In this document: one piece after another, positions 19,521-36,775 of the stretch | Position numbering within the stretch: position 1 is the first letter of the stretch | How the letters are laid out: every line of letters starts with the position of its first letter | Source: Sphingobium sp. | GTDB lineage: Bacteria > Pseudomonadota > Alphaproteobacteria > Sphingomonadales > Sphingomonadaceae | Direction: 5' to 3' | Length of the DNA: 64,000 nucleotides | Assembly (NCBI GenBank): GCA_022652485.1 | Contig: JALCRK010000007.1 | Span: forward strand, 1-64,000 | The notes under the pieces: generated by a model | Told to the model about the DNA's origin: nothing | What the model saw: only the letters and a program-made list of their open reading frames with translations | Database searches by the model: none | Program-made: the position numbers and the translations under genes

Positions 19521-19805
19521 ATGAACAGATACACGGTCCCGGCGCATCTCGATGATCCCGAGCTCATCGGCTTTTGGACGCTCGATGAATTCCTCGCGAT
19601 GATCCTGCCATTCGCCTGGGGCGTCCTGTCTCAACATATTCTGATTGGGCTCATTTCAAGCGTGCTGGCCTGGTGGGGATTGCGCAAGTTGAAGGCGGGA
19701 CGTGCCGTTTCGTGGATCATACATACGGCCTACTGGTACCTGCCGGGTGCCTTCATGGGTCTGAAGGCAACGCCGCCCTCCCATCTTCGACTGATGGCGG
19801 GCTGA
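19521..19805 (+). CDS. traL: Type IV conjugative transfer protein TraL
   Basis: The 94-residue inner-membrane protein begins YTVPAHLDDPELIGFWTLDE, the conserved TraL N-terminus, then has two membrane segments (MILPFAWGVLSQHILIGLIS and an aromatic second helix). It is the VirB3 counterpart for pilus assembly. It lies between pilin and traE, the canonical F arrangement, with one base before the traE ATG. Confidence 0.92.
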   Translation: MNRYTVPAHLDDPELIGFWTLDEFLAMILPFAWGVLSQHILIGLISSVLAWWGLRKLKAGRAVSWIIHTAYWYLPGAFMGLKATPPSHLRLMAG

Positions 19806-19806
19806 T

Positions 19807-20379
19807 ATGGACCTCTCGATCACGCACCAGCAATCGCAGCGGCTCCTGAAGCAGCGCAACCTGCTGGCCGGCTCCTGTCTGATCCTGTTCGGCGTCTCTG
19901 TGATGCTGACGCTGACCGCGCTGAAGCGCGACCGCGAAGTGGTGCTGCAGCCCGTGCTGGCGCGGCCGCTGACGCTGAGCTCGAGCCATATCGACAAGGA
20001 CTATCTGGAGCTGGTGACGCGCGATGCAGCGCTGCTGACATTGAACCGCTCGCCCTCGAACCTCCAGTACTGGATGGATTCGATCCTCAGCATAACCGAC
20101 CCCAGGACGCACGGCCGGATGAAGGCCGAACTGATGAAGGTGGTGGGCGAGCAGAGCGGTTCCAACGTCTCGCAATACTTCACGATCCAGAAGCTGAGCG
20201 TCGATCCGGACGCCCTCACGAGCGAAGTAAACGGCATGCTCCACACTGTCGTCGGGTCGAAGGAAGTGACCGCCGAGGCGCGCACCTTCCGCTTCGTGTG
20301 GAGCTACTCTGGCGTGTCGCTGAAGCTCGCCGGGTTCGGCCGGATCACCGAAAACGACAAAAAGGGGGAGCAGCCATGA
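19807..20379 (+). CDS. traE: Type IV conjugative transfer protein TraE
   Basis: The 190-residue VirB5/VirB8-like protein has one N-terminal membrane anchor (NLLAGSCLILFGVSVMLTLT) and a periplasmic domain with DYLELVTRDAALLTLNRSP and YFTIQKLSVDPDALTSEVNG, typical TraE signatures. It takes part in assembling the F-type pilus channel. The stop overlaps the traK start (ATGA). Confidence 0.93.
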   Translation: MDLSITHQQSQRLLKQRNLLAGSCLILFGVSVMLTLTALKRDREVVLQPVLARPLTLSSSHIDKDYLELVTRDAALLTLNRSPSNLQYWMDSILSITDPRTHGRMKAELMKVVGEQSGSNVSQYFTIQKLSVDPDALTSEVNGMLHTVVGSKEVTAEARTFRFVWSYSGVSLKLAGFGRITENDKKGEQP

Positions 20380-21173
20380 TGGCAGGGCTGGGATGGGGCG
20401 CGATTGGGGCAGGCGCAGCGTTGGCGGGACGGCCCCATACCGTTTCCGCACGACCGCTGGGAGCGGCACTCATTTGTCTCGGCGCGCTGTGCCTGGCATC
20501 GCCGGCGCTCGCCGACCAGAATGTGATGGCTGCCGACAATGGCACGGTGAGTTGCGTGGCATCGGCCAAGGACCTCACCCGGATCAGTCTCGCGGGCGAC
20601 CAGTTTGCCTCGGTGTCGAAGATCACGACCGGAATCCCCAGCGAAGACTTCAAGGTCGTCAACGAGCCGGTGCGCGGTGACATCTACATCTCGGTCCCCG
20701 ATGGCTTCGTTCGGCCAAACCTTTCGTTCTTCGGCACGACCCGCAAGGGCTTCGTCTACAAGTTCGTCTGCCAGGTGCGAGGGAGCGACGCCGAGCAGGT
20801 GTTCATCGCCAATGCCGCGATCAAGGCCGAGCAAGCACGCGACTGGGAAGTGCGGTCCTCGCCCGAAGACGCGGCGGTGCGGCTTGCCCAGGCCATGTAC
20901 CGCAGCGAGGTGCTGGACGGTTTCGACATCCGTCAGTCGGTGCTCGAACCGGTCACGGTCGGCAAACTCGAGGTCCAGCAGGTCGGGGAATACCGCGGCG
21001 CGGACCTAAAGGGCCTGATCCTGCGCGTGCGCAACTCTGGTCGCGATGCCCAGGTGCTCAATGAGAACATGCTCGCGGCTCGCGGCGCAGTCGCCTTCAT
21101 GACGCCGGTGAGCGAGCTCGCCGCAGGCCAGGAAACGGCCGTCTACCTCATTCAGGCAAATGGAGGCCGGTGA
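20376..21173 (+). CDS. traK: Type F secretin-like protein TraK
   Basis: The 265-residue protein starts at the ATG overlapping the traE stop. A signal peptide (LGAALICLGALCLASPALA) is followed by the TraK body: AADNGTVSCVASAKDLTRIS, and a beta-rich C-terminus ending in VYLIQANGGR. TraK is the VirB9/secretin-like periplasmic protein that bridges TraB and the TraV lipoprotein. Its stop overlaps the traB ATG (TGATG). Confidence 0.92.
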   Translation: MMAGLGWGAIGAGAALAGRPHTVSARPLGAALICLGALCLASPALADQNVMAADNGTVSCVASAKDLTRISLAGDQFASVSKITTGIPSEDFKVVNEPVRGDIYISVPDGFVRPNLSFFGTTRKGFVYKFVCQVRGSDAEQVFIANAAIKAEQARDWEVRSSPEDAAVRLAQAMYRSEVLDGFDIRQSVLEPVTVGKLEVQQVGEYRGADLKGLILRVRNSGRDAQVLNENMLAARGAVAFMTPVSELAAGQETAVYLIQANGGR

Positions 21174-22552
21174 TGGATCTGCGCAGGATATTCCGGAAAG
21201 TACCCAAGGCGCTCGATGCTGGCGGGGGCGACGATGCCTCGCCGCTCGGCGATGCCATCGCCGCCAACGAGGTGACCCGGAAAAAGCAGATGCTGCTGCT
21301 CGGTTCAGCAGGCGCCGCAGCGCTGGTAGCGGGCTCTCTCTATATCTTCGACGATAGCGGCAAGGCGAGCGATGCCGAGGTCAGGCAAGCCGCCGAAGGC
21401 GTCTCGGTCGACGAACTGGTCAACAAGAACATGGCTGAGAAGGAGTGGCGCGCGCAGTCCGAAGCGCAGATGATGTCAATGAACAACAACATGCGCGCAC
21501 TCGCCTCCCGGGCCGAGCGCGCCGACCATCTCGAACAGCAATTGGCAGCTGCACAAGGTGCTGGCGGAGGCCAGGGCGGAGCCATCTCGTCCGATACCGA
21601 ACGCGTATTGTCGGCCTACCAGGCGGAAAACGAGCAGCTGCGCGCAGCGCTGAATGCCGCGCGCCAATCGCCGGTTGGTGCGAGCGCTGGACCAAATGCG
21701 CTTTACGGACGCACCAGCCCGCCAAGCTACCAGGTCGCCGGTGCTCCGCGGGTTGGCGGACCGCTGCCGTCGACACCCGCCGGACAGGCAGCAGCCTCGG
21801 CAGCAGGTCTTCCGGCGATGCGCGGGAGTGAAGTGAGCCTGGTTTCGTTCAGCGAAGGCGCGAGCGGGACCGGCACACCGGTGCCCAAGGGCAATACGGT
21901 CTTTACCGACAGCGCAAATTATCTGCCGCCCAATTCGATCGCGGTCGCCAAGGTGATCGTCGGGGTCGATGCCATTGCGGGGGTCGAGAGCCAGACTGAT
22001 CCCTTGCCAGTCGTGCTGCGGATTACCGGACCGGCGCGCTCTGTCTACGAAAACGGTCGGCTGCTCACGACCAATATCGCCGGCTGCCTCGTCAACGGTG
22101 CGGCCCGCGCCGACCTCTCCTCGGAGAAGGTCTACGTCAAACTCCAGCGCATGACCTGCCCGCAGCCGGGCGGGCGCTACGCGGTCTCCGACGTCAAGGG
22201 CTTTATCGCCTTCGGCGGCAAGACCGGGGTGCGGGGCCGGGTGGTGAGCCGCGAAGGCGCGCTTGTCGGCCAGGCGTTTCTCGCCGGGCTCGCCGGCGGG
22301 TTCGGGCGCGGGTTTTCGGCCAACACCAGTTCGCTGATGACAGGCACCAATGTCTCGGTGAACGGCCAGCGCCCGAAACTCGGGGCGGGCGAGATCCTCG
22401 AAGGCGGGCTCGGCGAGGGCGTCGCGACCTCGGCTGACATGGTCTCCAAGTACCTGATCGAGCGGGCCGAGCAGTATCAGCCCGTTATCGAGATGCCGAC
22501 CGGGATCGATGTCGAAATCGTCTTCCTCGAAGGCGTGTTCATCAGCGGGTGA
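21173..22552 (+). CDS. traB: Type F channel scaffold protein TraB
   Basis: The 459-residue VirB10-like protein has a cytoplasmic N-terminus, one membrane helix (MLLLGSAGAAALVAGSLYIF), a coiled-coil segment around MNNNMRALASRAERADHLEQ, a proline-rich stretch, and a C-terminal TrbI/VirB10 domain with GCLVNGAARADLSSEKVYVK and VSREGALVGQAFLAGLAGGF. It spans inner and outer membrane layers of the channel. Length is close to the F protein (about 475). Confidence 0.93.
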   Translation: MDLRRIFRKVPKALDAGGGDDASPLGDAIAANEVTRKKQMLLLGSAGAAALVAGSLYIFDDSGKASDAEVRQAAEGVSVDELVNKNMAEKEWRAQSEAQMMSMNNNMRALASRAERADHLEQQLAAAQGAGGGQGGAISSDTERVLSAYQAENEQLRAALNAARQSPVGASAGPNALYGRTSPPSYQVAGAPRVGGPLPSTPAGQAAASAAGLPAMRGSEVSLVSFSEGASGTGTPVPKGNTVFTDSANYLPPNSIAVAKVIVGVDAIAGVESQTDPLPVVLRITGPARSVYENGRLLTTNIAGCLVNGAARADLSSEKVYVKLQRMTCPQPGGRYAVSDVKGFIAFGGKTGVRGRVVSREGALVGQAFLAGLAGGFGRGFSANTSSLMTGTNVSVNGQRPKLGAGEILEGGLGEGVATSADMVSKYLIERAEQYQPVIEMPTGIDVEIVFLEGVFISG

Positions 22553-22563
22553 GGAGAAAACGC

Positions 22564-23424
22564 ATGAAGCTTGAACAACTGCACCTGCGCCAAATGGGTT
22601 GGGCACTTGCCGCCGTGACGCTCGGCAGCGGCGCATCGCTGGTCTGGGCGCAGGCAAGCGAGGGGGCACCCGCAAGGCCATCACCGCAGGATACGTCAGT
22701 CGCAGCCCTGCTCAAGGAGCGCCTGCCGCGCACGCAGGTCTCCCGCGTCAACTGCCAGGTGGTCGACGGGGTCTGTGAAGTGACCGCAGGCTCGCAGCTG
22801 TTCTACGTCGACAAGACGGCACGCTACCTGATGATCGGGCGGGTCTACGACATGCAGACCCGCCAGGACCTGACCGCTGTGCGCCTGCTCGAGGTCAATC
22901 CCGATCTGCTGGTGGGCGGTGCAGCAGGCAGCCGGCGTGAGGCCGAAGCTGTTGAATCGCCAAGGCGCGGTGTGAACACAGCTGCCGCGCAGGCGGCCCC
23001 CCGGACGATGTCCCTGGCCGCACTGCCCGAGGCCGGCGGCATCGTCTGGGGAAATCCATCGGGTCAGACCGTCACCGTCTTCAGCGACTTTCGCTGCGGC
23101 TACTGCCGCGCGCTTTCAGGCGTGCTCGAGAGCCTCAACGTGCGGGTGATCGAGCGGCCGATCTCGGTGCTCGGCAGTCGTGATCTCGCCAACCAGGTGT
23201 TCTGCGCGCGCGACCGCCGCCGCGCGGTCAAGGCTGCCTATGCGGGTGAGCCGATCGCCGACACGCGGCCTTGCGACACCTCGCCGCTCGATGCCAACGA
23301 ACGCTTCGCGCGTGAAAACAGCATTGCCGGAACCCCGGTTATCGTCCGCTCGGACGGCGCAGTGATCGAAGGGTTCCGCCCGAAGGAATTCCTGATCACC
23401 TGGCTCAAGGGAGCGCGCTCGTGA
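22564..23424 (+). CDS. trbB: DsbC/TrbB-like thiol-disulfide isomerase
   Basis: The 286-residue periplasmic protein has a signal peptide (WALAAVTLGSGASLVWAQ), a DsbC-like N-terminal dimerisation domain with FYVDKTARYLMIGRVYDM, and a thioredoxin domain with FSDFRCGYCRAL (CxxC) and the cis-proline in IAGTPVIVR. It probably shuffles disulfides in cysteine-rich TraN, TraU, TraH and TraF. The start is ATG at 22564 after GAGGAG. The end overlaps the traV GTG. Confidence 0.88.
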   Translation: MKLEQLHLRQMGWALAAVTLGSGASLVWAQASEGAPARPSPQDTSVAALLKERLPRTQVSRVNCQVVDGVCEVTAGSQLFYVDKTARYLMIGRVYDMQTRQDLTAVRLLEVNPDLLVGGAAGSRREAEAVESPRRGVNTAAAQAAPRTMSLAALPEAGGIVWGNPSGQTVTVFSDFRCGYCRALSGVLESLNVRVIERPISVLGSRDLANQVFCARDRRRAVKAAYAGEPIADTRPCDTSPLDANERFARENSIAGTPVIVRSDGAVIEGFRPKEFLITWLKGARS

Positions 23425-24608
23425 CCTCGCTGTCGGCGCTGCAGTTTGCGGGATTCCAGCGCGCCGCCAGACGTCGCTCGCGCGGGCAAGTGACGATCCC
23501 CGATGTGCGGCTGAGCCTCGCAGAAGCCACCGCCCTGTGGACCGATATCCGCGCCGCCTTTGGCCCTGCCACTGGCAGGGACCTCGCGCCCCAGGAACTC
23601 GGTCACTTGCGCCGGCGTGCCTGGCGCCGATCCTCTGGCTTTGCGAGTCTGTCGGCGCTTTCGATGTCACTCGAGGCTGCCCACGCCTTCTGGCGGCTTG
23701 CCGGAAAGCTCGGCGCGCTGGCGGCCCGGCGCAAGGCTTCGCCGCGCTCGAAAGTCGCGGGCGCCGCCGTTCTTGGCCTTGCCGCGACGCAGATGGCGGC
23801 CTGCACCACCTTCCTGGGCAGCAACATCAAGGGCAGTTTTTCGTGCAATGCGCCGGGCGGCACCTGCGCGCCCTCGACCGTGATCGATGACCAGGCGCTT
23901 TCCGTTATCCAGAACGCACGGCCAATGAGTCCGGCCGGGCCTTACTTTCAGCCATCGGCGCGGAGGCCAGCCTCAGTCGCAGCCCTCGCACCTGCCGGAC
24001 GCGGACGCTTGGCGGCCGCCAGCGAAGGCCTCGTCCACCGCGAGCGCCGGGTCCTGAAAGTTGTGTTCCCCGCCTTTGTCGATGGTGCGGGCAACCTGCA
24101 CGAACCGCGCATTGTCCATACCGTCGCCGACCAGGGAGGCTGGATGCAGTTGTCCTCGGGCGAGCCCAATGCGGGTGATCAGCTCGCGGGCCGCGGCGAT
24201 GCCGCAGCTGCGATCCCTGCATCGCTGGCCGGCACCATGACTGCGCCAATGCCGGGGATGAATGACACCGCTCAGGAGTTCAGGGACGCCCCCACCCAGG
24301 CTCTGGTCGCCTCGCAGGTACAAGGCGGGCCGCCCGACCCGAGGCTCGTTGCCGAAGCCCGGGCAAGGGGCACCGAGCGACGCGCAGTGTCGCCGGTCGA
24401 TGCCATCAAGTCCGAAGTCCAGGCGCAGCTTGCGCGGGTCCCCAAGGCGTCGGGCAGCGTCGGCACGGTTCAATCGCCGCCACTAGAAAGGTCGGCAGAA
24501 CCGGCCGCCTCGCAACCTGCGGCACAAGGCGCGGCACAAAGCCAGGTCCCGCCTGCCCCCAAGGTCGCCAACCCGCCCGCCGGTTTTTCCGGCAAGATCG
24601 AGGAGTAG
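23421..24608 (+). CDS. traV: TraV-like outer-membrane lipoprotein with a long N-terminal extension
   Basis: The 395-residue product has its TraV part from about residue 127: a lipobox-like AATQMAAC, then TTFLGSNIKGSFSCNAPGGT, which is the conserved TraV start. A proline- and alanine-rich tail follows. TraV anchors the TraK-TraB channel in the outer membrane. Unusually, about 115 arginine-rich residues precede the lipobox, starting from the GTG coupled to trbB. No start codon with a ribosome-binding site lies close to the lipobox. Either the extension is real or an adjacent small gene has fused to traV. Confidence 0.82.
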   Translation: MTSLSALQFAGFQRAARRRSRGQVTIPDVRLSLAEATALWTDIRAAFGPATGRDLAPQELGHLRRRAWRRSSGFASLSALSMSLEAAHAFWRLAGKLGALAARRKASPRSKVAGAAVLGLAATQMAACTTFLGSNIKGSFSCNAPGGTCAPSTVIDDQALSVIQNARPMSPAGPYFQPSARRPASVAALAPAGRGRLAAASEGLVHRERRVLKVVFPAFVDGAGNLHEPRIVHTVADQGGWMQLSSGEPNAGDQLAGRGDAAAAIPASLAGTMTAPMPGMNDTAQEFRDAPTQALVASQVQGGPPDPRLVAEARARGTERRAVSPVDAIKSEVQAQLARVPKASGSVGTVQSPPLERSAEPAASQPAAQGAAQSQVPPAPKVANPPAGFSGKIEE

Positions 24609-24615
24609 GCCCGTC

Positions 24616-25245
24616 ATGGCCGCCCGCAGCTTCTGGGACAGCTTTCTCACCCTGATTTTCGGCGACGCGGCGCATCCCGAGGCGCAGCGCCCGCTGCTCG
24701 GCGCACCGATGCTGTCGAACTGGCTCCCATACCGCAGCTTCGACGCCAAGAGCCGCATGTTCATCAACACCGAGTCTGTCGGTTTCATCCTCGAGCTCGC
24801 CCCGATGGTGGGGGCGGACGAGCGCAGCGGCGAGATCCTGACGCAGTTCCTCTCCGATGCCGTGCCGTCGGGCTGCGAGATCCAGCTGATCCACTGGCAA
24901 AGCCCGTCGATCGGGGAGCGCATCGCCGACTGGGTCATGCCGCGGGTGGTTGCCAAGTCCCAGGGGAGGGCCGGCGACATGAAACACCCGCTGCTTATCG
25001 CCATGCTGACCCCGCAGGCTGCGCCCGAGACGCGCGGGCTCAGGATCATGCGGCTTGTCTGGATGGCGCTCTGCGCCAGCCTCGCGGGCGCGGTGCTCGG
25101 GCTGCAAGTGCTCCTCGCACTGCTTGGCCCGAAAGGTGCGCTTGTCGCGGCCGCGCTGTGCCTCGCCGCGCCGATCCATGGCCTGTTCTACTTCCGCGCC
25201 AAGATCCGCGCGGACGAAGCCTTTGAGAGAGGGGAGGGGGCATGA
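24616..25245 (+). pseudogene. traC: traC remnant: N-terminal about 115 residues joined to a small membrane protein
   Basis: Residues 1-115 are the TraC start: PMLSNWLPYRSFDAKSRMFI, then TESVGFILELAPMVGA and SGCEIQLIHWQSPSIGER. TraC is normally over 800 residues with a Walker ATPase that drives pilus assembly (VirB4 equivalent); none of that remains. At residue 122 the frame enters a different protein with its own ATG at 24979 and an AGGGGAGGG site before it. That 88-residue product has two membrane helices (RLVWMALCASLAGAVLGLQV and ALVAAALCLAAPIHGLFYF). An in-frame deletion of over 2 kb best explains this. Confidence 0.8.
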
Positions 25246-26264
25246 AGGCGCTGCGCAAAGTCTTCGTCATGGCACTTGCCGTCCTGGCCATGGTCTTCGT
25301 AGGCCCTAGCCCCGCCCGCGCGGCATCGGTCACCTGCCACGGCAAGTTCATCAATCCGATCACCGATGTCTGCTGGTCGTGCCTGTTTCCGCTGTCGATC
25401 GGCGGCCTCTCGATCTGGAAGGGCTCGCGGCCTGATCCCAAGAACCCGACTTTTCCGCTCTGTGCCTGCGGCTCGCCCATTCCGCGCATCGGCATTTCGG
25501 TCGGGTTCTGGGAGCCGGTGCGGCTGATCGATGTAACCAATAAGGCCTGGTGCTTCCCCAATCTTGGCGGGATCAGCCTCAACCCGGGCTTCGATATCGG
25601 CAACGGCCATGTCCAGGGGCGCAGCCAGGTCGGCGGCAAGACCCAGAACAGCTCGCAGTGGCAGTCGCACTACTACATCTACCCGCTGCTCTACTGGATG
25701 GAGATCCTCACCGATTTTCTCTGTTTCGAGCAGACCACTTTCGACGTCGCCTATGTGACAGAGCTCGATCCGCTGTGGCAGGATTCGGCGCTGACCTCGA
25801 TCCTCAATCCCGAAGTCGCGCTCTTCGCCAATCCGATTGCCGCGGCCGCCTGCGCCGCAGACTGCGTGGCTTCCACGGCGAAACTGCCGATCGACCAGAT
25901 GTTCTGGTGCGCGGGCTGCAACGGCTCGATGTACCCGCTGAACGGTCATGTCCCGGCTCATGTGACCCCGGTTCAGGCCTCGCGGCTCGTCGCCGAACGC
26001 ATGCTCTACAAGGTTCACCGCCAGGCGCTGGCATGGGGGACAATGGGTTCGAAGGCGCTGTGCCACAAGTACCTGATGCCGGTGATGCGCAAGCAGCAAT
26101 ACCGGCTGCAGATGACCAATCCCATTTCGACAGTGAAGGGCCGCTACGCCTGCGCGCCGATCGGCGCGACCACGATCATTCCGCACACCGGCAAGTCCTT
26201 CCCGGTGAAGGGCGAGGACTTTGGCTACCTCGTCTGGCGCAAGCGCAACTGTTGCATGCTGTGA
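25242..26264 (+). CDS. traU: Type F conjugative transfer protein TraU
   Basis: The 340-residue periplasmic protein has a signal peptide (VFVMALAVLAMVFVGPSPAR) and the cysteine-rich TraU body: CHGKFINPITDVCWSCLFPL, PLCACGSP, then WCAGCNGSMYPLNGH. It assists pilus assembly and mating-pair stabilisation together with TraW and TrbC. Its start overlaps the end of the preceding traC-remnant frame. TraW, normally just upstream, is absent. The length matches the family (about 330). Confidence 0.94.
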   Translation: MKALRKVFVMALAVLAMVFVGPSPARAASVTCHGKFINPITDVCWSCLFPLSIGGLSIWKGSRPDPKNPTFPLCACGSPIPRIGISVGFWEPVRLIDVTNKAWCFPNLGGISLNPGFDIGNGHVQGRSQVGGKTQNSSQWQSHYYIYPLLYWMEILTDFLCFEQTTFDVAYVTELDPLWQDSALTSILNPEVALFANPIAAAACAADCVASTAKLPIDQMFWCAGCNGSMYPLNGHVPAHVTPVQASRLVAERMLYKVHRQALAWGTMGSKALCHKYLMPVMRKQQYRLQMTNPISTVKGRYACAPIGATTIIPHTGKSFPVKGEDFGYLVWRKRNCCML

Positions 26265-26278
26265 GGAGCGCGCGCGCC

Positions 26279-27037
26279 ATGATCCGGAAGCTGCCCCGGC
26301 CCACGCTTGCCGGTATGGCGGGCTTCCTTGCACTTGCCGCAGTCTCGGCGGCGCTCGCCCAGACAGTCGGCGACCTCGATCTCGGCGCGATCAAGACGCG
26401 CGGGACCGAGCAAGTGAAGGAGGCGCAAGCCTTCGTCGACGAAGTGGCGGGCAGGGGCGAGGCGCACCGGGCCGAGGCCGAAGAACTGAGGGATGAAGGC
26501 CTGAAGGCGGTTTCCGAACTCGATCCCGCCAGTCTACCCAAGGGTCCGGCGGGGCCAGTGGACTTCGACGAACTGCTGAGCGGCGCTGCCGCCAACACGC
26601 GCGCACCCATGGGCGAGGGGCCGCTGTTCACGGTCTTTGCCAGCCTGTCGATGCCGCAGGCAAGCCTGAGTGCCCTGATCCGCGACACGACAAAGGCCGG
26701 GGGTGTGGTCGTGTTTCGGGGATTTCCGCACGGCAGCACCAAGGCCTTTGTCGAAGGGCTGAAGCGCGTGGTCACCGATCAGGCGCAGGAAGCCCACATC
26801 GCGATCGACCCGCGGCTGTTTCGCGCCTTCAAGGTCACCGCCGCGCCGACCTTCGTGGTGACGGGTCGCGCATACGAGCTGTGCGACGGGTTCGATTGTT
26901 CGAGCGCGGCGCCCGACCACGACCGCATGGCGGGCAACGTCACGGTCGAATACGCGCTCGAGAGCTTTGCTTCGGCGCGCGGTCCCGGTGCCGGTGTCGC
27001 CGGCGTCGCGCTCGCCAACTTGCGCAAGCGGGACTGA
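26279..27037 (+). CDS. trbC: Type F pilus assembly protein TrbC
   Basis: The 252-residue protein has a signal peptide (GMAGFLALAAVSAALAQ), a coiled-coil-like stretch at about 45-75, and the TrbC domain: LFTVFASLSMPQASLSALIR, then VVVFRGFPHGSTKAF and VTAAPTFVVT. It acts in the periplasm with TraW and TraU. The ATG at 26279 follows GAGGAG. The traN gene begins two bases after the stop. Confidence 0.92.
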   Translation: MIRKLPRPTLAGMAGFLALAAVSAALAQTVGDLDLGAIKTRGTEQVKEAQAFVDEVAGRGEAHRAEAEELRDEGLKAVSELDPASLPKGPAGPVDFDELLSGAAANTRAPMGEGPLFTVFASLSMPQASLSALIRDTTKAGGVVVFRGFPHGSTKAFVEGLKRVVTDQAQEAHIAIDPRLFRAFKVTAAPTFVVTGRAYELCDGFDCSSAAPDHDRMAGNVTVEYALESFASARGPGAGVAGVALANLRKRD

Positions 27038-27038
27038 T

Positions 27039-28460
27039 ATGCGCGCACGCTCCCTCCCTCGGCGGGCCTGGTCCCGGCTCACGCCAGCAATACTGCTCCT
27101 CGGCGCGGTGCTTGGCCTTATTGGCGGGACAGCAAACGCACAGGTCTATATCCCGCCGCCCGACGACCTGATTGAAAATCTGCCTGTCCTGCCGTCCGCG
27201 ATCGACCCTGGCATCGCGCCGCCCGCACCGCCGCCCCCTTCCGCGCCTGTGACCATGACGGCGGACGAGGCCAAGGCCGAGGCGCGTGGGCTTGGAAGCA
27301 CGCTGCGCGGAGCCTACGAAGGACTGACCCAGGCGCCGGGCGCAGCCGGGCAGATTCCAGGCTATCAGGACACCTATCCGGGCCAGACGAGCTATTACAC
27401 CAACTCCGAAGCCATGCAGAGCGATGGCGCGGTGGCGGGCTGGAACAGCGAGGCCTACCAGACCGCCAATTCCACAACGCGGCCGACGGTCGATATCACC
27501 CGCGGCGATCTTTCTCGCGCCACCGCAATCGAGGCCGATCCGAACGCCTATCTGGACGGCATGAGCGCCGATGGTTCGACCGGATCCTGCACGCCGCTGC
27601 CGCCGGGCTCGGGCACAGCCAATACCGCCGAATGGACCTGTCATGTGGGTTCAAGCGTGGTGGAGCAGCCACGGACCTGCACCCGCAGCCTGGCAGTCGC
27701 TGAATGGAACGACACCCTTTACCAGTATCTTTGCGTTACAGCTGCCGGTTTCGATGGCTGCGCATCGCTCGCCGGCAATGCCATGTGCCACAGGACCGCG
27801 AGCTATCCGGTACCCGAATATGGCCTGACGGTCGATTATTACGACTGCGACAGCCCGGTCAGCGATCCGGGCGCCTACCTCATGGGCACGCTGCCAAAGC
27901 CGCCGCCTGCGGGCGCATTTCAGGTCGTGAGCAATGTCTATCGCTGCAACCGCGAGGGGATCGCCGACGCCCTGACCTTCGATCCCGTCACCGGCACGCC
28001 GCTGCAATACCTGACTGGCCTCCAGCAATGCGGGTCGATTGCCTCCAATGCCAGCTGCACGGTCACCAGCGCCACCGCAGCTGGCCTAGCTGAGCGCTCA
28101 CTTTGCAAGACCTGGGACTTCATCGGCGATCCTTTCGGCGGCGGCTCGCTCTATTGCCTCGAGCCCGCCGCGCCCGAGGAAGTCTACGTCTGCACCGCAA
28201 ATGTTGCGGGGATGACGGCGGAAAGCGCGATCTCGAAATGGTTCGTCGAGACCTGGACCGACAACGCCTGGGGCAAGCCCAAGACCGAAACCTGCGAAGG
28301 CTTCTCGATTTTCGAGTTCCAGCAGCTCGATCTTGCCGCGATGGATTTTTCCGAGGTCTACGCTGACTTCATGGAAGCCGCGAAGCTCCCCGACGAAGCC
28401 GCCGCCCTCGTCCAGATCCAGCAGAAAATCGCGGACTATTACGCCGCGCACAAGCCGTGA
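27039..28460 (+). CDS. traN: TraN-like mating-pair stabilisation protein, short form
   Basis: The 473-residue outer-membrane protein has a signal peptide (PAILLLGAVLGLIGGTANAQ), a proline-rich linker and cysteine-rich body (CTPLPPGSG, EWTCHVGSSVVEQPRTC, GGGSLYCLEP). It ends with AWGKPKTETCEGFSIFEFQQ then LDLAAMDFSEVY, the TraN C-terminal pattern. TraN contacts the recipient surface. F TraN is about 600 residues. I do not see the FCC-type segment that normally precedes the W-G motif, so an internal loss is possible. Confidence 0.8.
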   Translation: MRARSLPRRAWSRLTPAILLLGAVLGLIGGTANAQVYIPPPDDLIENLPVLPSAIDPGIAPPAPPPPSAPVTMTADEAKAEARGLGSTLRGAYEGLTQAPGAAGQIPGYQDTYPGQTSYYTNSEAMQSDGAVAGWNSEAYQTANSTTRPTVDITRGDLSRATAIEADPNAYLDGMSADGSTGSCTPLPPGSGTANTAEWTCHVGSSVVEQPRTCTRSLAVAEWNDTLYQYLCVTAAGFDGCASLAGNAMCHRTASYPVPEYGLTVDYYDCDSPVSDPGAYLMGTLPKPPPAGAFQVVSNVYRCNREGIADALTFDPVTGTPLQYLTGLQQCGSIASNASCTVTSATAAGLAERSLCKTWDFIGDPFGGGSLYCLEPAAPEEVYVCTANVAGMTAESAISKWFVETWTDNAWGKPKTETCEGFSIFEFQQLDLAAMDFSEVYADFMEAAKLPDEAAALVQIQQKIADYYAAHKP

Positions 28461-28470
28461 GGAGATCGTC

Positions 28471-28860
28471 ATGACCAAAAAATACGAGAGGCAGCCTCCC
28501 GGCGACGTGCGTGCGTTTGCGGTCGGCGGCAACCTGCTTTGGCCCAACATGGCCCTGTCCGAATTCTTCGTCGTCTTGGCTTTGTGCCGCCGCGGACCGT
28601 CGACCTCTGCCGAGGTCGCACGCGAAGTATCGACCTGGCTCGACACGCCGCTGCCTCCCGGTGGCCTCAAGCGCACGCTGCACGTGGTAGCCGGGCTGGG
28701 CTGGGCGCACCACACCGAGGGAGTTTACGCGATCAGGAGCGAGGGGATCAAGATCATGCGCAGCTGTCATGTCGCTTATATGCGTATGTTGAGTGACGGC
28801 CCGGCACACCCGGATGCCGCCGTTCTTAAGTGCTGCATCGAAAAATCCGAAAGGTCCTGA
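28471..28860 (+). CDS. Unknown tra-operon protein, winged-helix-like
   Basis: The 129-residue soluble protein lies between traN and traF. The segment ALSEFFVVLALCRRGPSTSA with EVAREVSTWLDTPLP resembles a small winged-helix fold (PadR-like), followed by a strand pair HHTEGVYAIRSEGIK. GGAG stands before the ATG, and its stop overlaps the traF start (TGATG). It is not a known F gene at this position. A regulator or assembly factor are both possible. Confidence 0.6.
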   Translation: MTKKYERQPPGDVRAFAVGGNLLWPNMALSEFFVVLALCRRGPSTSAEVAREVSTWLDTPLPPGGLKRTLHVVAGLGWAHHTEGVYAIRSEGIKIMRSCHVAYMRMLSDGPAHPDAAVLKCCIEKSERS

Positions 28861-29681
28861 TGATGCTCCAGCGGTCACGAATATCGCTCGCTGTGCTGGC
28901 CGCACTGCTTGCAGCATCCACCACTCTGGCGATTGCGGCCGACCGGAACGGCGACGGTGTCGAAGTCGAACAGCAGGAAGACGCGCTTTATTGCAAAGAG
29001 CGAAGGCTCGGCACCTGGTTCTACTGCGAAAAGCCGAAGGAGGCGCCGCGGACCACGGCCGCACCGCAAGCGTCCGCGCGGGATCGCCTGGCCGCGATCA
29101 GTACCAGTCTCGAGGAGCTGAAGGCGCGCGCGATCCTCGAGCCGAGCCCCGAGAACGTTACTGCCTATGTCCGCTTCCAGCGCGAGCAGCTCGACCGTTC
29201 CTCGATGTTCGCCGATGTCTGGCAGCGCGCACTGTGGCAGGATCCAGGGCTCGACTACACATTGCAGCGCCCGGTCTCGACGCTCGGCAAGCGGGCGTGG
29301 ATTGACCAGCGCAAGGGCGACCGCGACCTGGTCATGGCCCAGCTCTCGCAGCGCTACGGGGTGTTCTACTTCTACGCCTCGAGCTGCGGGGCCTGCGACA
29401 TCTTCTCGCCAATCCTCAAAGCCGTCAGCGACAAGTACGGGCTCTCGGTGCTCGCCGTCTCGATGGACGGCGGACCTTCGGCGGTCTTCCCCGGCTACAT
29501 GGTCGATAGCGGCCAATACGAGCGCCTTGGCATGGGCACCGACCGGCAAGTGCCTGCGCTCGTCCTGTTCGACAGCGTGACCAAGCAGCCCATGCCGATC
29601 GGCTACGGAATCCTCAGCCAGGACGAGATCATGGACCGGGTGTTCCAGCTGACCCAGGTTGCCGCCGGGAGTGACTACTGA
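28860..29681 (+). CDS. traF: Type F conjugal pilus assembly protein TraF
   Basis: The 273-residue periplasmic protein has a signal peptide (SLAVLAALLAASTTLAIAA) and conserved TraF features (LYCKERRLGTWFYCEKP, QREQLDRSSMFADVWQRALW). A thioredoxin-like domain has an intact CxxC in ASSCGACDIFSPIL; the F-plasmid TraF lacks this pair, so this copy may be redox active. Coupled to traH by TGATG. Confidence 0.93.
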   Translation: MMLQRSRISLAVLAALLAASTTLAIAADRNGDGVEVEQQEDALYCKERRLGTWFYCEKPKEAPRTTAAPQASARDRLAAISTSLEELKARAILEPSPENVTAYVRFQREQLDRSSMFADVWQRALWQDPGLDYTLQRPVSTLGKRAWIDQRKGDRDLVMAQLSQRYGVFYFYASSCGACDIFSPILKAVSDKYGLSVLAVSMDGGPSAVFPGYMVDSGQYERLGMGTDRQVPALVLFDSVTKQPMPIGYGILSQDEIMDRVFQLTQVAAGSDY

Positions 29682-31159
29682 TGCGAAAATCCCGTTCCTG
29701 TCGCCGCAGCGCAAAGAATCTTCGGCCCCGGTTTGCCGGCGTCTCGGCGCGGGTGCTCGGCACCCTGCTCGCCGGCTCGATCGTGCTCGCCTCGCCGGCC
29801 CCGGCACTTGCCGGAGTCGAGGGCGAGATGCAGAACTTCATGTCCGAGATGGGCGTGCAGGGAAACGTCACGGGGCCTAGCGCCTACCAAGGCCAGTCGG
29901 CGGGCTACTATTCGGGCGGGGCGGTCTGGTCGCGGTTTCCGCAAAAGAACATCCAGCCCTTCAACATCCAGTTGCCGCACGCGCGCGCCGGCTGCGGCGG
30001 CATCGACCTGTTTGCGGGCTCGTTCTCGTTCATCAACACCGCCGAACTCGTGGCCATGCTCAAGGCCACTGCCAACAACGCGCTCGGCTTCGCCTTCAAG
30101 CTCGCCATCGACACGATCTCGCCCGAGATCGGCAAGGTCATGGATGAGCTCGCCCAGAAGGTGCAGCAGATGAACCAGATGAACATCTCGAGCTGCGAGA
30201 CCGCGCAGGCGCTGGTGGGCGGGCTGTGGCCGACTTCCGACACGGCCTCCTCGGTGATCTGCGAGGCGATCGCCAACAGCCAGGGCGCGGTCGCCGACTG
30301 GGCCAAGGCGCGCCAGCAATGCAACAACGGCGGCCAGCGCGAGGCCCTGAAGGGCGCAAATTCCGACCCGGACATGCGCGAACAGGCGGGCATGCCCAAC
30401 AACTATACCTGGGAGGCTTTGGGCAAGAAATACGGCGGGTTCGATGCCCAGTTCCGCGAGTTCCTGATGACGCTGGTCGGCACGGTGATCTACGACCCCA
30501 ATGGCACTGGCGGCAAACCGCGCGTCCAGTTCATCGGCCCGGCCGATAGCGCGCTGATCAGCGCCATGCTCGATGGCACGTCATCGACGCCGCACAAGGT
30601 CTGGAGCTGCGGCTCGGATACCAGCAAGTGCATGAACCCCAGCGAGATCGACATGGTGATCGGACCCAACGCGGCGATCAAGACCAAGGTGCGCGCGCTT
30701 ATCGAGTCCATGGCCCTCAAGGTGCGCGATCCCGGAGCCTCGCTGACGACGGGCGAGGTCCAGCTTCTCGGCATGGCGAGCGTGCCGGTCTACAAGATCA
30801 TCACCGTGAGCGCGGCCGCCGAGTTCGGGATCTCGGCCCAGGAGATCAACGACCTTTCCGAAATCGTTGCGGTCGATCTGGTCACCACCATGACCATGCG
30901 GTTCATCGACATGGCAATCAATTCGCGGTCCGACTTCAACGGCGCGGACGCGGATAGCTTACGCGAATGGCGTGAGGGGCTTTACGAAACCCGGCGCAAC
31001 TTCCTCGGGATCGCGGCGCGGACCTCTGACCGCTTCGACCAGACCTTTGCGCTGATCCAGCGCACGCAGATGCTGGAGAAGACCCTGCGCACGCAATTGA
31101 GCCCGCAGATGTCGGCGGCGCTGCGCTTCTCGCGCACCTTGAACCAACAGGTCCAGTAA
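29681..31159 (+). CDS. traH: Type F conjugal transfer protein TraH
   Basis: The 492-residue periplasmic and outer-membrane-associated protein has a signal sequence (LGTLLAGSIVLASPAPALAG), then GVEGEMQNFMSEMGVQGNVT, RAGCGGIDLFAGSFSFINT and CETAQALVGGLWP, all typical of TraH. It forms an outer-membrane complex with TraF and TraU. Length is near F TraH (about 458). It precedes traG by 13 bases. Confidence 0.95.
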   Translation: MRKSRSCRRSAKNLRPRFAGVSARVLGTLLAGSIVLASPAPALAGVEGEMQNFMSEMGVQGNVTGPSAYQGQSAGYYSGGAVWSRFPQKNIQPFNIQLPHARAGCGGIDLFAGSFSFINTAELVAMLKATANNALGFAFKLAIDTISPEIGKVMDELAQKVQQMNQMNISSCETAQALVGGLWPTSDTASSVICEAIANSQGAVADWAKARQQCNNGGQREALKGANSDPDMREQAGMPNNYTWEALGKKYGGFDAQFREFLMTLVGTVIYDPNGTGGKPRVQFIGPADSALISAMLDGTSSTPHKVWSCGSDTSKCMNPSEIDMVIGPNAAIKTKVRALIESMALKVRDPGASLTTGEVQLLGMASVPVYKIITVSAAAEFGISAQEINDLSEIVAVDLVTTMTMRFIDMAINSRSDFNGADADSLREWREGLYETRRNFLGIAARTSDRFDQTFALIQRTQMLEKTLRTQLSPQMSAALRFSRTLNQQVQ

Positions 31160-31172
31160 GGGGCGCTGGCGG

Positions 31173-33212
31173 ATGCTCGAGGTCTACACGGTCGGCGGCG
31201 GCGACTATCTCGTCAACACCTTCAACGCGATCGCCGCCTGGACCGGTTCGGGCGGGTTCAAGTCGCTGATCCGGGTCGTCATGGTGATGGGGCTGATCTA
31301 CGCGCTCCTCATCACCGCGATGGATCTCGACTGGCGCGCCTGGTTTCGCTGGTTCATCCAGTCGACGCTGATCTACCTCGTGCTCATGGTGCCGACGGTC
31401 ACGATCAAGGTCACCGACCGCATCAATCCGGGCCTCGCGCCATCAACTGTCGCCAATGTGCCGATCGGGCTCGGCGTCATGGCCTCGTTCACCAGTCAGG
31501 TAAGCGACTACTTCACCCGCACTGCCGAGACGGTGTTCGTCATGCCGGCGGCCTTGAACTATTCCAATGGCGGCTTCGTCTACGGTGCGCGGATGTGGGA
31601 CAAGGTGCGCGGGTTCGAGATCCGCAATCCCGTGTTCAAGGCCAACTTGGACGGCTACCTCAAGCAGTGCGCCTATTACGACATCCTGCTCGGCACCAAG
31701 AGCTTGAAGCTGCTCAGCGAGTCGACCGATCTCTGGGCCGACCTTGGGGTGGGTGCCGCCACCAACCGCGGCATGAAGTATCTGACCGATACCGGTGGCG
31801 GGACGGTCGATATCGAGGGCAAGACCTGCGCAGAGGCTTGGGGCCTGATCGATGCGCAGTGGGACACCGAGATCAATGCCTATGCGCTGCCATTCGCGCA
31901 TTCGATGTACCCCAAGCTTACCCAGGCCGCCGCCGGTGCAAAGCTCGCCGCCGATGTTCCGGTGGTCTCGCAGCTGCTCACCGGCAGCGCCATGACCCGC
32001 AACCAGTTCTTCAAGCAGAAGAGCATGGTCGATGCTTTCGAGGCCGCCCAGCTCGACTTCGGCAATGCCGACAGCGATTCCTTCGCGCTCCAGCGCGCTG
32101 ATGCCCAGACCCGCAACGCCATGACCACCACGGCCGAGCAGGGGCTGATCTGGATTCCGGTGCTGAACGTGGTGCTGACGGTCGTGTTCTACGCGCTGTT
32201 TCCGATCGTTTTTCCGCTGCTGCTGTTTCCGCGCAGCGGTATCGCGACGCTCAAGGGCTATTTTGCCGGTTTCTTCTACCTTGCCGCCTGGGGACCAATC
32301 TACGTCCTCATTCACATGTTCATCATGGACCGCCTCGCAGCGCAGACCAATGCGGCGGCAGCGGGCGGGGTGAGCCTTGTGAACTGGGCCGGGATCGATG
32401 CCGTCAATCAGGACGTCGCCACCATGGCGGGGTTCCTGATGATGTCGGTGCCGGTGCTTGCTCTCATGGTGATGCGCGGCACCATGTCGGTCGCCTCCAA
32501 CATGGGCTCGATGCTCGCCCCTGCGCAGGGCGGGGCGGATGCAGCCGCGCTTGAGCGAACCACTGGCAACTATGCCTTCGGTGATGTCAGCCATGGCAAT
32601 CTCAATGCCAACAACCGCCAGATGGCGCAGTGGAACCAGGCGCCCAACCTCATGGCTGGCGCCGCCCATTCAGGATTCCGCGGCGATGATGGCCGCATGT
32701 ACCATCAGTACGGCGAGGGCCACACGGTGATCGACAGCAGCGGCGCCATCTCGCAGCTGCCGTTCAAGGCGTCGATGACACGCGGTTACGCCAGTGATCT
32801 CAGGAACCAGGGTCAGTGGTACATGAACGAGGCCGAGCGCATCGAGAATGGCACATCGGCGACCTGGAGCAGTTCGCGCGGAACATTCGGCAGTGCGGTC
32901 GCTGCCAGCAGCGAGGTCAGCGGGTCGCGAAGCGAGCGCGGGTCGCGTTCGTCAGACACCCACAATGTCGGCGGCAATGTCATGGTCGAGGGCTCATCGG
33001 GCAAGTCCACGCGCGAAGTCACGAATGACGATCTGATCCTGCGGCAGGGCAACAGTCGATCGAGTGGGAATTTTGATCAGCGGGCGTTTGGAGGCTCGGT
33101 AACTGGCTCTGCAAATGGAACTATTGGAACGCCCGGGAAGGATCTTGCAGGTAGCGGTGTTTCGGCGGGCCTTGGCGCTTCGATTTTTGGCAGGCGGGAA
33201 TGGGGGGGATGA
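31173..33212 (+). pseudogene. traG: TraG N-terminal part, ended by a frameshift
   Basis: The 679 codons hold the multi-pass inner-membrane half of TraG: MVMGLIYALLITAMDLDWRA, an internal helix group around 330-440, and a serine-, glycine- and asparagine-rich C-terminal region. It then stops at REWGG. The next frame continues the protein, so the stop comes from a frameshift in a run of seven G residues near 33201-33208. F TraG (about 940 residues) acts in pilus assembly, mating stabilisation and entry exclusion. A sequencing error in the G-run is the other explanation. Confidence 0.85.
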
Positions 33213-34215
33213 CGCCAGAACCGGATCCGAACGATCTGCGACGAACCAGGTCACCCGCGGTACGGACAAGTCCGAGGATGTGGGCAGCCGGGTCGTCGTC
33301 AGCGGCAACAGCGGCGATGTCCGGTCGTCGGGCACATTCAGCCAGAACTCCGATTATACCGATGCCAGCCAGAGCCGGACTACGACTGACGGCACAGATT
33401 GGCGGATTGCCGAGGCCGACGAGCGGCGCGCGGCGGCTGCGCGGTACCGCGAGATTGGCGGCAGGATGATGTCCGAAGCAAGCTACGCGGAGAGCCATGG
33501 ATTCCAGGTGTCGAGCGACATGTCTAACCTGATCCAGGATCGCTACGAGGCCCTGCAGCGTGAACATCCTGAATGGCATCTTCCCGACATCTCGAACCCG
33601 CGCCTCGACTACCGCGATCTCGCAAGGCGCGATCAGGCCATCAGCTACATCATGGATGACCTGATGAGTGACCTGCGCAATCGGCGTATCGACGAACTGG
33701 CGGACGTATCCGATATCGCCGGTAAAGGTGCGCTCGGCAGCAATGCCGAGCTTGGCATGCCGGACAGCGTTGCATTGCCGCCTTCCGGGGGCTCGTCGGC
33801 ACTCGTAGCCTCAGCCTTGGAAGGAGGAACGCTTCTGGCGGCTCCCGATGGGCCGGTTGATGGAGCGAAGCTTGCGCGCGAGCTGGGACTAGGCATCAAA
33901 CCCAGCGCGCAACTAGGCCGGATGGATGGCGAACTCGTACCAGCCATGGGCGTGGTGGCAGAGGAAGCAACGGCGCTTGGCCTGCCAAGGCCCGTTGTCA
34001 CGTCGGGCAATGACAGTACCCAGCACGTTGCTGGTTCCGCCCATTATGACAACCGGGCGCTCGACTTCCGTGGGAACAACATCTCTGACGCACAAGGAGC
34101 GCAATGGGCCGCACGCGTGCAGGAGCGTCTAGGGCCATCATATGCAGTCGGTTTTGAGCGGTTCCCTGACAACCCGGCTCGGGATCATCTGCATGTTGCT
34201 AAACGACGCAGTTGA
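33115..34215 (+). pseudogene. traG: TraG C-terminal part in the shifted frame, with M15-like peptidase end
   Basis: TraG homology resumes at about 33205 (GGDDARTGSERSATNQVTRG) and runs through a helical periplasmic region (AAARYREIGGRMMSEASYAE). The last 100 residues look like a zinc peptidase of the M15 (D-Ala-D-Ala carboxypeptidase-like) type: SAHYDNRALDFRG gives a histidine and aspartate, and RDHLHV gives the final H-x-H. This may be a wall-cleaving domain on TraG. The codons before 33205 are a shadow of the first frame. Confidence 0.75.
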
Positions 34216-34217
34216 AA

Positions 34218-34424
34218 TCAGCCAACGATTCCGGATTCAACGAGAAACACGATTACAAAGGCGATCATGCATACCACTACTGTCGGCAAAACGTAGGGAT
34301 TGCCGTCCTGTACCGATGGATCGGCATGCGGAACAGATGGCAACGGCAGGCCGGTGACAGGATCAGTGTTCGCTGCGCGGCAAGCCAAGGGTAAGCCATC
34401 CAGTCCGTATCGATCGTGGTTCAT
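34218..34424 (-). CDS. Small tail-anchored membrane protein
   Basis: The 68-residue product has a hydrophilic N-terminus with repeated proline-aspartate turns (DPVTGLPLPSVPHADP) and one C-terminal membrane helix (LPTVVVCMIAFVIVFLVESG). AAGGAG lies eight bases before the ATG, which makes a real gene likely. It is convergent with traG. No family recognised; entry-exclusion-like roles are conceivable but unsupported. Confidence 0.6.
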   Translation of the reverse strand: MNHDRYGLDGLPLACRAANTDPVTGLPLPSVPHADPSVQDGNPYVLPTVVVCMIAFVIVFLVESGIVG

Positions 34425-34671
34425 GTTGGGGCTCCTTGCTCTGGCAATCGATACCCTGTTCGGGCCGATTTTTCAATGATGTGCCAGGAAAAAGGGTGAG
34501 CCCCCGCCGCCCATTCCGCACCCTCGCACTCCTCGGCGCAGAGCGCCGGATCTGGTGATGGCAATTACGCGATCTCAGGCGCGTGCGGTGATTGAGCGCG
34601 CTATTCTCCGCATATATTGCGGCGATTGTCGTCCCGGCGACCTCTAGGCTGCCGAGCTCGCGACTTGACAA

Positions 34672-34689
34672 TGTAAGAATTATTCCTTA
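34672..34689. promoter_or_regulatory. Palindromic operator and promoter for prlF-yhaV
   Basis: GTAAGAATTATTCCTTAC is an 18-base imperfect palindrome that begins three bases after a TTGACA -35-like hexamer (34664-34669) and ends 27 bases before the prlF ATG. It covers the expected -10 region, the usual place for antitoxin autorepression. Antitoxin binding is inferred. Confidence 0.6.
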
Positions 34690-34716
34690 CCTTCCGGCTG
34701 TCGCATGGAGAGTATT

Positions 34717-35040
34717 ATGGCAATCGCGCTCGAGGAATTCAGCACCATTACCGCGAAGGGTCAGACGACGATCCCCAAGGCAGTCCGTCAGGCGCTGGGC
34801 GTCGGTTACGGTGGCCGCATTGCCTTTCGCGTGAGCGATGGCGGCGTGACCGTTTGCCGTGCGGATAGCGATGAGGATCCGGCAGTCGAGAGCTTCCTGA
34901 GCTTTTTGGCTGCCGATCTGAAACAGCACCCTGAGGCCGTGAAAGCGCTTTCGCCCGATCTCACCGCCCGCATTGCCGCGCTGACCGCAAATATTCCGGT
35001 CGATCTCGATGACGCGATCGACGGCGACGTCTCGCTTTGA
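34717..35040 (+). CDS. prlF: PrlF-type antitoxin (AbrB/SpoVT fold)
   Basis: The 107-residue protein has the swapped-hairpin DNA-binding start, FSTITAKGQTTIPKAVRQAL, then RIAFRVSDGGVTVCRAD and an acidic helical C-terminus that would wrap the toxin. It neutralises YhaV and represses the pair's promoter. Partner gene follows 22 bases downstream. The second ATG (34717) is chosen to match the family N-terminus; an ATG at 34705 is in the same frame. Confidence 0.9.
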   Translation: MAIALEEFSTITAKGQTTIPKAVRQALGVGYGGRIAFRVSDGGVTVCRADSDEDPAVESFLSFLAADLKQHPEAVKALSPDLTARIAALTANIPVDLDDAIDGDVSL

Positions 35041-35062
35041 GCAATGACCCGGACTTGCTCAA

Positions 35063-35521
35063 GTGATCACGGTCAACGGTTGGACACTTTACGCGCATCC
35101 GCTGTTTCTCGCCCAGCTCGATAAGCTGACGAGCGCCGGTGAGCGCGCCCGCGAAAAAGACCCGATTGCCTATACCACCAGCGCTGACGCCAAGTTGCTT
35201 GCCGCAATACGCAAGCTGGTTTTCGAGGTGATCCCCGTCGATCCCTCACGTCCTGAGTTCCGGCAAGGTGGCACCCTGGGCCGGGAGCGCAAGCACTGGT
35301 TCCGGGCAAAGTTCGGCAATGGCCGGTTCCGGCTGTTCTTCCGCTACTCGACTGCCGCAAAGATCATCATCTTCGCCTGGGTCAACGACAGCAACACGCT
35401 GCGCACCTATGGCTCAAAGAGCGATGCCTACGCCGTTTTCAAATCCATGCTCGACAAAGGCAATCCTCCCGAAGATTGGAACGCCCTATTGGAAGCATGC
35501 ATGGAATTGGCCGCAGGCTGA
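35063..35521 (+). CDS. yhaV: YhaV-type toxin (ribosome-dependent RNase)
   Basis: The 152-residue protein carries YhaV landmarks: NGWTLYAHPLFLAQLDKL, then LGRERKHWFRAKFGNGRFRL and IIFAWVNDSNTLRTYGSKSD. YhaV is a RelE-fold RNase that cleaves translated mRNA. The start is GTG at 35063. It pairs with prlF immediately upstream, forming a complete type II module. Confidence 0.92.
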   Translation: MITVNGWTLYAHPLFLAQLDKLTSAGERAREKDPIAYTTSADAKLLAAIRKLVFEVIPVDPSRPEFRQGGTLGRERKHWFRAKFGNGRFRLFFRYSTAAKIIIFAWVNDSNTLRTYGSKSDAYAVFKSMLDKGNPPEDWNALLEACMELAAG

Positions 35522-35557
35522 TCCGGGTCCAACCGATATCCGGCCCAAATCCAGCTT

Positions 35558-35779
35558 TCAGGCGCTATTCTGCACTTCGACGTATTCCACCTCGATCCTG
35601 TCAACATCGACTATGCGCCCGCGCACCCGGACACGCCCATTGAGCCCTCCCGCCGCGCTTTCGTCAACAAAGCCAAGCCGCCAGCACAGGCCGTCATCGC
35701 CGCGCAGGATCGGCGCGCGCGCGCCGGGTTCGATCATTCCGACATGGAATCTCGCTGAGGGGGAACTGCTCGATTTCAT
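35558..35779 (-). CDS. DUF5818-like small protein (tentative)
   Basis: The 73-residue frame contains LRGDDGLCWRLGFVDE followed by LNGRVRVRGRIVDVDRIEVE, which resembles the short beta-barrel of DUF5818 proteins common in sphingomonad plasmids. No convincing ribosome-binding site is seen for either ATG (35779 or 35737). It lies between two toxin-antitoxin modules and may be an old remnant. Confidence 0.4.
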   Translation of the reverse strand: MKSSSSPSARFHVGMIEPGARAPILRGDDGLCWRLGFVDESAAGGLNGRVRVRGRIVDVDRIEVEYVEVQNSA

Positions 35780-35940
35780 GGGGTGACTTGGTGTCGGATG
35801 GAGGGAACAGCCTGAGGTGCATGCCGCGGACCCTGGTCGGCCTTAGCCTGCAGGATCGAACTTGCCCAGCCATCGCAGGAACTGGCACCTACTGACGACC
35901 CGTCCAGGGTCCCACCAAAGGCCCCGCCAACGATGCAGGT

Positions 35941-35971
35941 TGCATAGTTATCAGCGTGTGATAACTATGCA
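35941..35971. promoter_or_regulatory. 13-bp inverted repeat abutting the tumE start
   Basis: TGCATAGTTATCA (35941-35953) and its exact complement TGATAACTATGCA (35959-35971) are separated by five bases, and the right arm ends two bases before the tumE GTG. Perfect symmetry at this position is a strong operator candidate for the HTH antitoxin TumA. It leaves almost no room for a leader, so the transcript may be near-leaderless. Confidence 0.65.
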
Positions 35972-35973
35972 GG

Positions 35974-36345
35974 GTGAATGAGCCGCACGACTCGAGCCTT
36001 GATGCCTTGCTTCCGCTCGATGGCGAAGTGTTTGTCATCGATCCTTCGGGGAACCACTGGGTCAAGTTCGAGGTCAAACGTGTGGCAAGCTCACCCGAGA
36101 GACCGCACGGCTTGCGCTACTCGCTCACTCTGCACGACGGGAAGGGCGAAAGGTTGGTCGGATTCGACAATGCCCATCCGGTGACGTCGGGTTCGGGACC
36201 GGGGGCAAAACAAGCGGCTGCGTTCGACCATAAGCATCGGCTACGAACCATTCGCCCTTACGAATACGCCGATGCCGCAAGCCTGTTGGCCGACTTCTGG
36301 ACAGAAGTCGAAGCGGTGCTGGCGCAGCGAGGAGTAAAGCTATGA
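35974..36345 (+). CDS. tumE: TumE-family toxin (DUF6516)
   Basis: The 123-residue protein carries FVIDPSGNHWVKFEVKRV, LRYSLTLHDGKGERLVGFDN and HPVTSGSG, the DUF6516/TumE pattern of a small predicted toxin. The start is GTG at 35974, directly after the inverted repeat; no ATG in frame is nearby. The stop overlaps the antitoxin start by four bases. Family members are coupled to an HTH antitoxin, as here. The toxic activity is known only at family level. Confidence 0.8.
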   Translation: MNEPHDSSLDALLPLDGEVFVIDPSGNHWVKFEVKRVASSPERPHGLRYSLTLHDGKGERLVGFDNAHPVTSGSGPGAKQAAAFDHKHRLRTIRPYEYADAASLLADFWTEVEAVLAQRGVKL

Positions 36346-36713
36346 CGACGTTGAAAATCGGAATTGCCAGCCCGGCGGACTACAAAGCCCGGACCATGGC
36401 CATCGCGCGGGGCGAGTTGAAGCAGTCGGCGCAGGGGCCGAAGGTATGGTTCACCTCGATCGAGAGCCTCGCCAAGGTGCTGTCCGACCGCAACCGGGAA
36501 CTGCTGGCGCTGATCGCCAAGGAAAAGCCGGAGTCCTTGCAGGCGCTGGTCGAACGTACCGGGCGAGCCAAGTCGAATCTGTCGCGCACATTGAAGACGA
36601 TGGAGCGTTACGGTCTCGTGCGTTTCGAGAAGCGGCCCAACCGGGCACTCGCTCCGCGCGTGAATTACGACGATATCCGGCTCGACCTGTCGTTGCGCGC
36701 GCAGGCTGCCTGA
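36342..36713 (+). CDS. tumA: TumA-family HTH antitoxin
   Basis: The 123-residue protein has a winged helix in the centre: LQALVERTGRAKSNLSRTLK, TMERYGLVRFEK. The N-terminal helix part (RGELKQSAQGPKVWFTSIES) is typical for antitoxins paired with DUF6516. Gene order is toxin first, overlapping by ATGA. It probably binds the repeat upstream of tumE and neutralises TumE. Confidence 0.8.
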   Translation: MTTLKIGIASPADYKARTMAIARGELKQSAQGPKVWFTSIESLAKVLSDRNRELLALIAKEKPESLQALVERTGRAKSNLSRTLKTMERYGLVRFEKRPNRALAPRVNYDDIRLDLSLRAQAA

Positions 36714-36775
36714 TCGCGCAATCCCCAAAATGGTGGCGCGGCCCGGTGGGAGGCGACCCGGGCCGCGCCGTCTGG

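Follow-up and report, generated by a model that had tools for sequence, protein, structure and literature searches.

The closest described counterparts of the locus analyzed here are the F-like (MPF_F) transfer regions of sphingomonad plasmids. Plasmid pCADAB1 of Sphingomonas sp. ERG5 (NC_022235.1) shares the gene order and, on either side of the join that concerns us, 91-96% DNA identity, and pCAR3 and pNL1 have the same MPF_F architecture, with 74-84% DNA identity in the case of pCAR3. In the annotation of both pCADAB1 and pCAR3, traC (868 aa in both) is followed by a hypothetical gene, trbI, an S26 signal peptidase gene, traW, a small gene given as a separate CDS, and traU. These plasmids are intact. 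Unlike pCADAB1, the window, by which we mean the whole analyzed stretch of 64,000 nucleotides at the start of an 86,651-bp Sphingobium contig (C7) that extends to the right beyond it, has no intact traC, hypothetical gene, trbI, S26 peptidase gene, traW, traN, traG, mobF, or traD. A TraC mutant of F is deficient in pilus formation, and its transfer is strongly reduced (PMC3297438).

At the position of traC, the window has a fused reading frame of 209 codons (24616-25245, on the forward strand like the window's other transfer genes) that consists of three parts. The first (24616-24957) is a remnant of traC, codons 1-114 of 868. Residues 33-114 match positions 1-83 of 375 in the Pfam family TraC_F_IV (PF11130, 2e-27), a partial profile that identifies the N-terminal TraC domain, and the NCBIfam TraC-F-type model is matched at positions 1-74 of 800 only, with a score of 61 against a cut-off of 567. 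In intact TraC, Walker A (GKSGSGKS) occupies residues 483-490, and it is thus missing from the 114-codon stump, the Walker A/B ATPase domain having gone with residues 115-868. The second part (24958-24978) is seven out-of-frame codons from the end of traW (SQGRAGD, residues 115-121) and contains the ribosome-binding site native to the gene that follows. The third (24979-25245, residues 122-209) is a complete 88-aa gene, naturally a separate and conserved open reading frame between traW and traU of sphingomonad F-type plasmids (pCAR3 among them) and 94-100% identical across five loci. Its own ATG at 24979 and the GGAGG 9 nt upstream are both found in intact relatives as well. Kyte-Doolittle hydropathy predicts two closely spaced hydrophobic helices for its product, and neither a Pfam nor an NCBIfam family matched it above the family's cut-off.

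An earlier, sequence-only reading of this DNA had described a TraC N-terminus without Walker motifs, fused to a small two-helix membrane protein with its own ATG and ribosome-binding site, and these features were borne out. The switch that it placed at about residue 120 is also real, but its position is not, as similarity to relatives ends exactly at 24957, in codon 114. Because the small gene still has a start and ribosome-binding site of its own and the TraC stump lacks an ATPase, the 209-codon frame is best read as a by-product of a deletion rather than as a new kind of protein.

The extent of this deletion is apparent from a contig of Novosphingobium album (NZ_JARESE010000060.1), which is 99.9% identical to the window over positions 21193-37013. 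The differences over this interval are gaps of 4,352 and 720 bp, both filled in N. album, one inserted G, and about ten substitutions. The larger gap is at 24957|24958 (24956-24958, unstranded), where the bases AG are shared, and it spans most of traC, the whole of the hypothetical gene, trbI, and the S26 peptidase gene, and all but the end of traW in the intact N. album order traC–hypothetical gene–trbI–S26 peptidase gene–traW–small gene–traU. Since the flanks are 99.9% identical to this intact, colinear locus, the join is not a chance arrangement. The small gene served as the query for finding related genomes; the flanks of the join are about 4.35 kb apart in N. album, Sphingobium sp. CECT 9361, S. 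xenophagum, and Sphingomonas sp. ERG5 (pCADAB1), and the missing segment is present in pCADAB1, pCAR3, Sphingobium sp. CECT 9361, and S. xenophagum. A deletion of more than 2 kb had been suggested from the frame itself, and alignment with related sphingomonad plasmids, which carry traC and the small gene as separate genes and have an intact traC-traW segment, supports the event but enlarges it to 4,352 bp with four further genes hit. Relocation of the segment elsewhere in the genome was considered and rejected, as the deleted traC-traW DNA is absent from the assembly at the DNA level, with the best match, on contig C50, being 68% identical.

Searches for the same join covered 401 genomes of the family and 72,556 plasmid records. 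Matches to TraC and/or the small gene were found by protein search in 81 of the 401 genomes, and the fusion occurs in none of these except the window's own. Where TraC and the small gene share a contig, about 4.7 kb separates them (as at 150972 and 155669 of contig G057:C4). The junction 21-mer, with up to two mismatches allowed, was found among the 401 genomes only in the window's own, plus an unrelated site with two mismatches. Among the plasmid records, none reaches 80% coverage of the fused protein or the junction DNA, and IMG/VR contains no match to the junction. A natural two-part gene family, which the same short protein beside a separate full-length TraC elsewhere would have indicated, was sought and rejected (0 other cases in the 401 family genomes and 72,556 plasmids).

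The fused frame sits among both intact and damaged transfer genes. Upstream, traL, traE, traK, traB, dsbC, and traV (19521-24608) are intact, with full-length tblastn matches of 93-100% identity to the pCADAB1 proteins, and downstream traU (25242-26264) is intact and 97% identical to pCADAB1 TraU; together with trbC, traF, and traH, these genes are 92-100% identical to those of pCADAB1 and nearly full length. The traN gene (27039-28460) is reduced from 713 to 473 codons by the in-frame 720-bp deletion at 28267-28270, where the bases CCTG are shared, which takes out 240 cysteine-rich residues. The traG gene (31173-34215) is frameshifted by an extra G, at about 33202, in the run at 33196-33202 (G7 compared with G6 in N. 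album), and in such a homopolymer this could be either real slippage or a sequencing error. Further right, an HTH gene (36342-36713) leads directly to a DUF2493 gene (37020-38114), and mobF and traD are missing at the junction 37013|37014 (unstranded), where about 7.9 kb found in relatives is absent; the N. album contig carries this extra 7.9 kb, colinear with pCADAB1. Identity to N. album falls from 99.9% to 95% to the right of this junction, and a right flank that is only 95% identical makes this a join between different backbones by recombination rather than a simple deletion.

Thus, from the set comprising traC, trbI, traW, traN, traG, traU, trbC, traF, and traH, the window has lost traC, trbI, and traW, together with the S26 peptidase gene, and has damaged copies of traN and traG. 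As for a relaxase and coupling protein in cis, mobF and traD are absent from the whole of C7, and its MobA/MobL relaxase is split. No F-type pilus would be expected given the loss of TraC, TraW, TrbI, and the peptidase, and these losses combined with the missing relaxase and coupling protein point to a region that is dead in cis. Judging from gene content, the region would be unable to make pili or transfer DNA alone. Death in cis had been raised as one possibility on the strength of traC; it appears largely right, and the further losses of trbI, the peptidase gene, traW, mobF, and traD, along with the lesions in traN and traG, make it stronger than originally claimed.

Decay continues on C7 beyond the window. 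The MobA/MobL (TraA-like) relaxase gene (C7 65670-68305) is split in two frames, apparently through an internal loss, and its helicase Walker A region seems to be missing. A phage-type integrase gene has a frameshift at about residue 123 when compared with intact homologues, which are about 420 aa long. A tRNA-Glu(CTC) lies next to the integrase (C7 71048-71122), and contig C5 of this genome carries a second, 88% identical copy of the integrase/tRNA-Glu region (C7 69673-71122). Past the tRNA-Glu, the genes show synteny with contig G421:C107 from another genome of the genus, and this synteny and the chromosomal type of these genes suggest that the right end of C7 is chromosomal. A circular plasmid contig was rejected because C7 ends without overlap and has chromosomal-type genes at its right end. 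An island bounded by a direct repeat of the tRNA-Glu was also rejected, with no attL-like repeat found on C7.

The same assembly contains at least two additional F-type transfer sets, either whole or in part (contigs C50, C56, C34, and C54). Contig C50 has a divergent F-type set with TrbI, an S26 peptidase, TraW, TraU, others, and a full-length TraC with Walker A, the second traC that the sequence-only reading had thought worth looking for; this TraC is 54% identical. Relatives of MobF and TraD are on C54. A second pCADAB1-like set is represented by TraG, TraH, and TraF on C56 (79-91%) and by TraD and MobF on C34 (79-83%), and its traL-traN part was not found in the assembly. No 16S rRNA gene was detected in the genome, for which contamination is 4.38%. 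The lack of a 16S rRNA gene and the partial nature of the second pCADAB1-like set suggest that the genome is probably a metagenome bin, possibly with related plasmids mixed in.

Our preferred reading, to which we assign a probability of roughly 0.8, is that a recently acquired pCADAB1/pNL1-type F-like (MPF_F) region is decaying by short-homology deletions, that the traC-traW deletion is one of these, and that the region is dead in cis. The 4,352-bp deletion would have proceeded via only 2 bp of shared sequence, with end points at codon 114 of traC and in the final few codons of traW. It would have taken out the ATPase domain and, along with it, the hypothetical gene, trbI, the S26 pilin peptidase gene, and all but the tail of traW. 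The TraC stump would have come to lie in frame with the 88-aa gene before traU by chance, for which the odds are about one in three, and that gene should still be translatable from its own start. Decay may have been neutral after integration, following a loss of selection, or loss may itself have been selected, for example by pilus-dependent phages. The other broken genes on C7 (traN, traG, the integrase, and the MobA/MobL relaxase) support decay.

The main alternative, unlikely although conceivable for a genome of this kind, is that the join is an assembly artefact, made in silico or from chimeric reads in a bin mixing pCADAB1-like plasmids, and that the cells carry an intact traC. The missing 16S rRNA gene, the level of contamination, and the partial second set on C56 and C34 would be compatible with such an origin, as would a clustering of substitutions beside the junction: four are located at 24984-25003, within 46 bp to the right of the join (P about 1e-8 if randomly placed). 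Their combination of bases was not found in any relative examined, and no donor was identified among these. The cluster suggests an event more complex than a clean deletion, and the join may be a repair or recombination event that altered its neighborhood or may include a short patch from a related plasmid. An overlap assembly, however, cannot join on two shared bases without reads across them, no other contig carries the 4.35-kb segment, and the independent lesions in traN, the integrase, and the MobA/MobL relaxase fit real decay. A real deletion, probably present in the cells, is thus favored by the requirement for reads across the join and by the lack of the deleted DNA on every contig.

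Other readings accept the deletion and give the locus a function. The ATPase could in principle be provided by another element, namely the C50 TraC, and the set on C50, with TrbI, the peptidase, TraW, and TraU, and the MobF and TraD relatives on C54 could supply what is missing, so that the remaining envelope proteins work in a hybrid machine. We regard this complementation as very improbable. The proteins are mostly only 31-68% identical, the window's traN and traG are themselves damaged, its mobF and traD are gone, and there is no sign of selection keeping the locus; a supply of C50 TraC would not restore a relaxase and coupling protein in cis. The proposal of a repurposed channel likewise found no support. 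That the fusion is a selected new protein, for instance a membrane-anchored N-terminal fragment of TraC that interferes with other conjugation systems, seems barely credible to us. In its favor, no stop codon interrupts the frame at the join, and the TraC piece does not differ from that of the nearest relative. However, the few substitutions in 15.8 kb imply an age too short to show constraint, about one join in three would be in frame anyway, the small gene still has a start of its own, and only one genome has the fusion. There is similarly next to no probability that a stable anchored fragment targets the cell's other F-type systems, such as by poisoning TraC hexamers or excluding rival plasmids.

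The locus is a case of ordinary decay of a transfer region, with other broken parts beside the fused frame. More generally, it shows why intact relatives should be consulted before a gene fusion known from one genome is taken for a new protein. The window offers a clear case of transfer-region disarming, with several lesions in DNA that is otherwise still 99.9% identical to an intact copy. Natural loss of a conjugation ATPase of the VirB4 type has likewise been described for IncP plasmids, where 24 of 182 have a truncated TrbE/VirB4 and pilus-dependent phage selects such truncated mutants in the laboratory (PMC13222520). The IncP truncations differ from the traC deletion described here in belonging to another plasmid group and mating-pair type, and it is there that the link to plasmid-dependent phage has been made.
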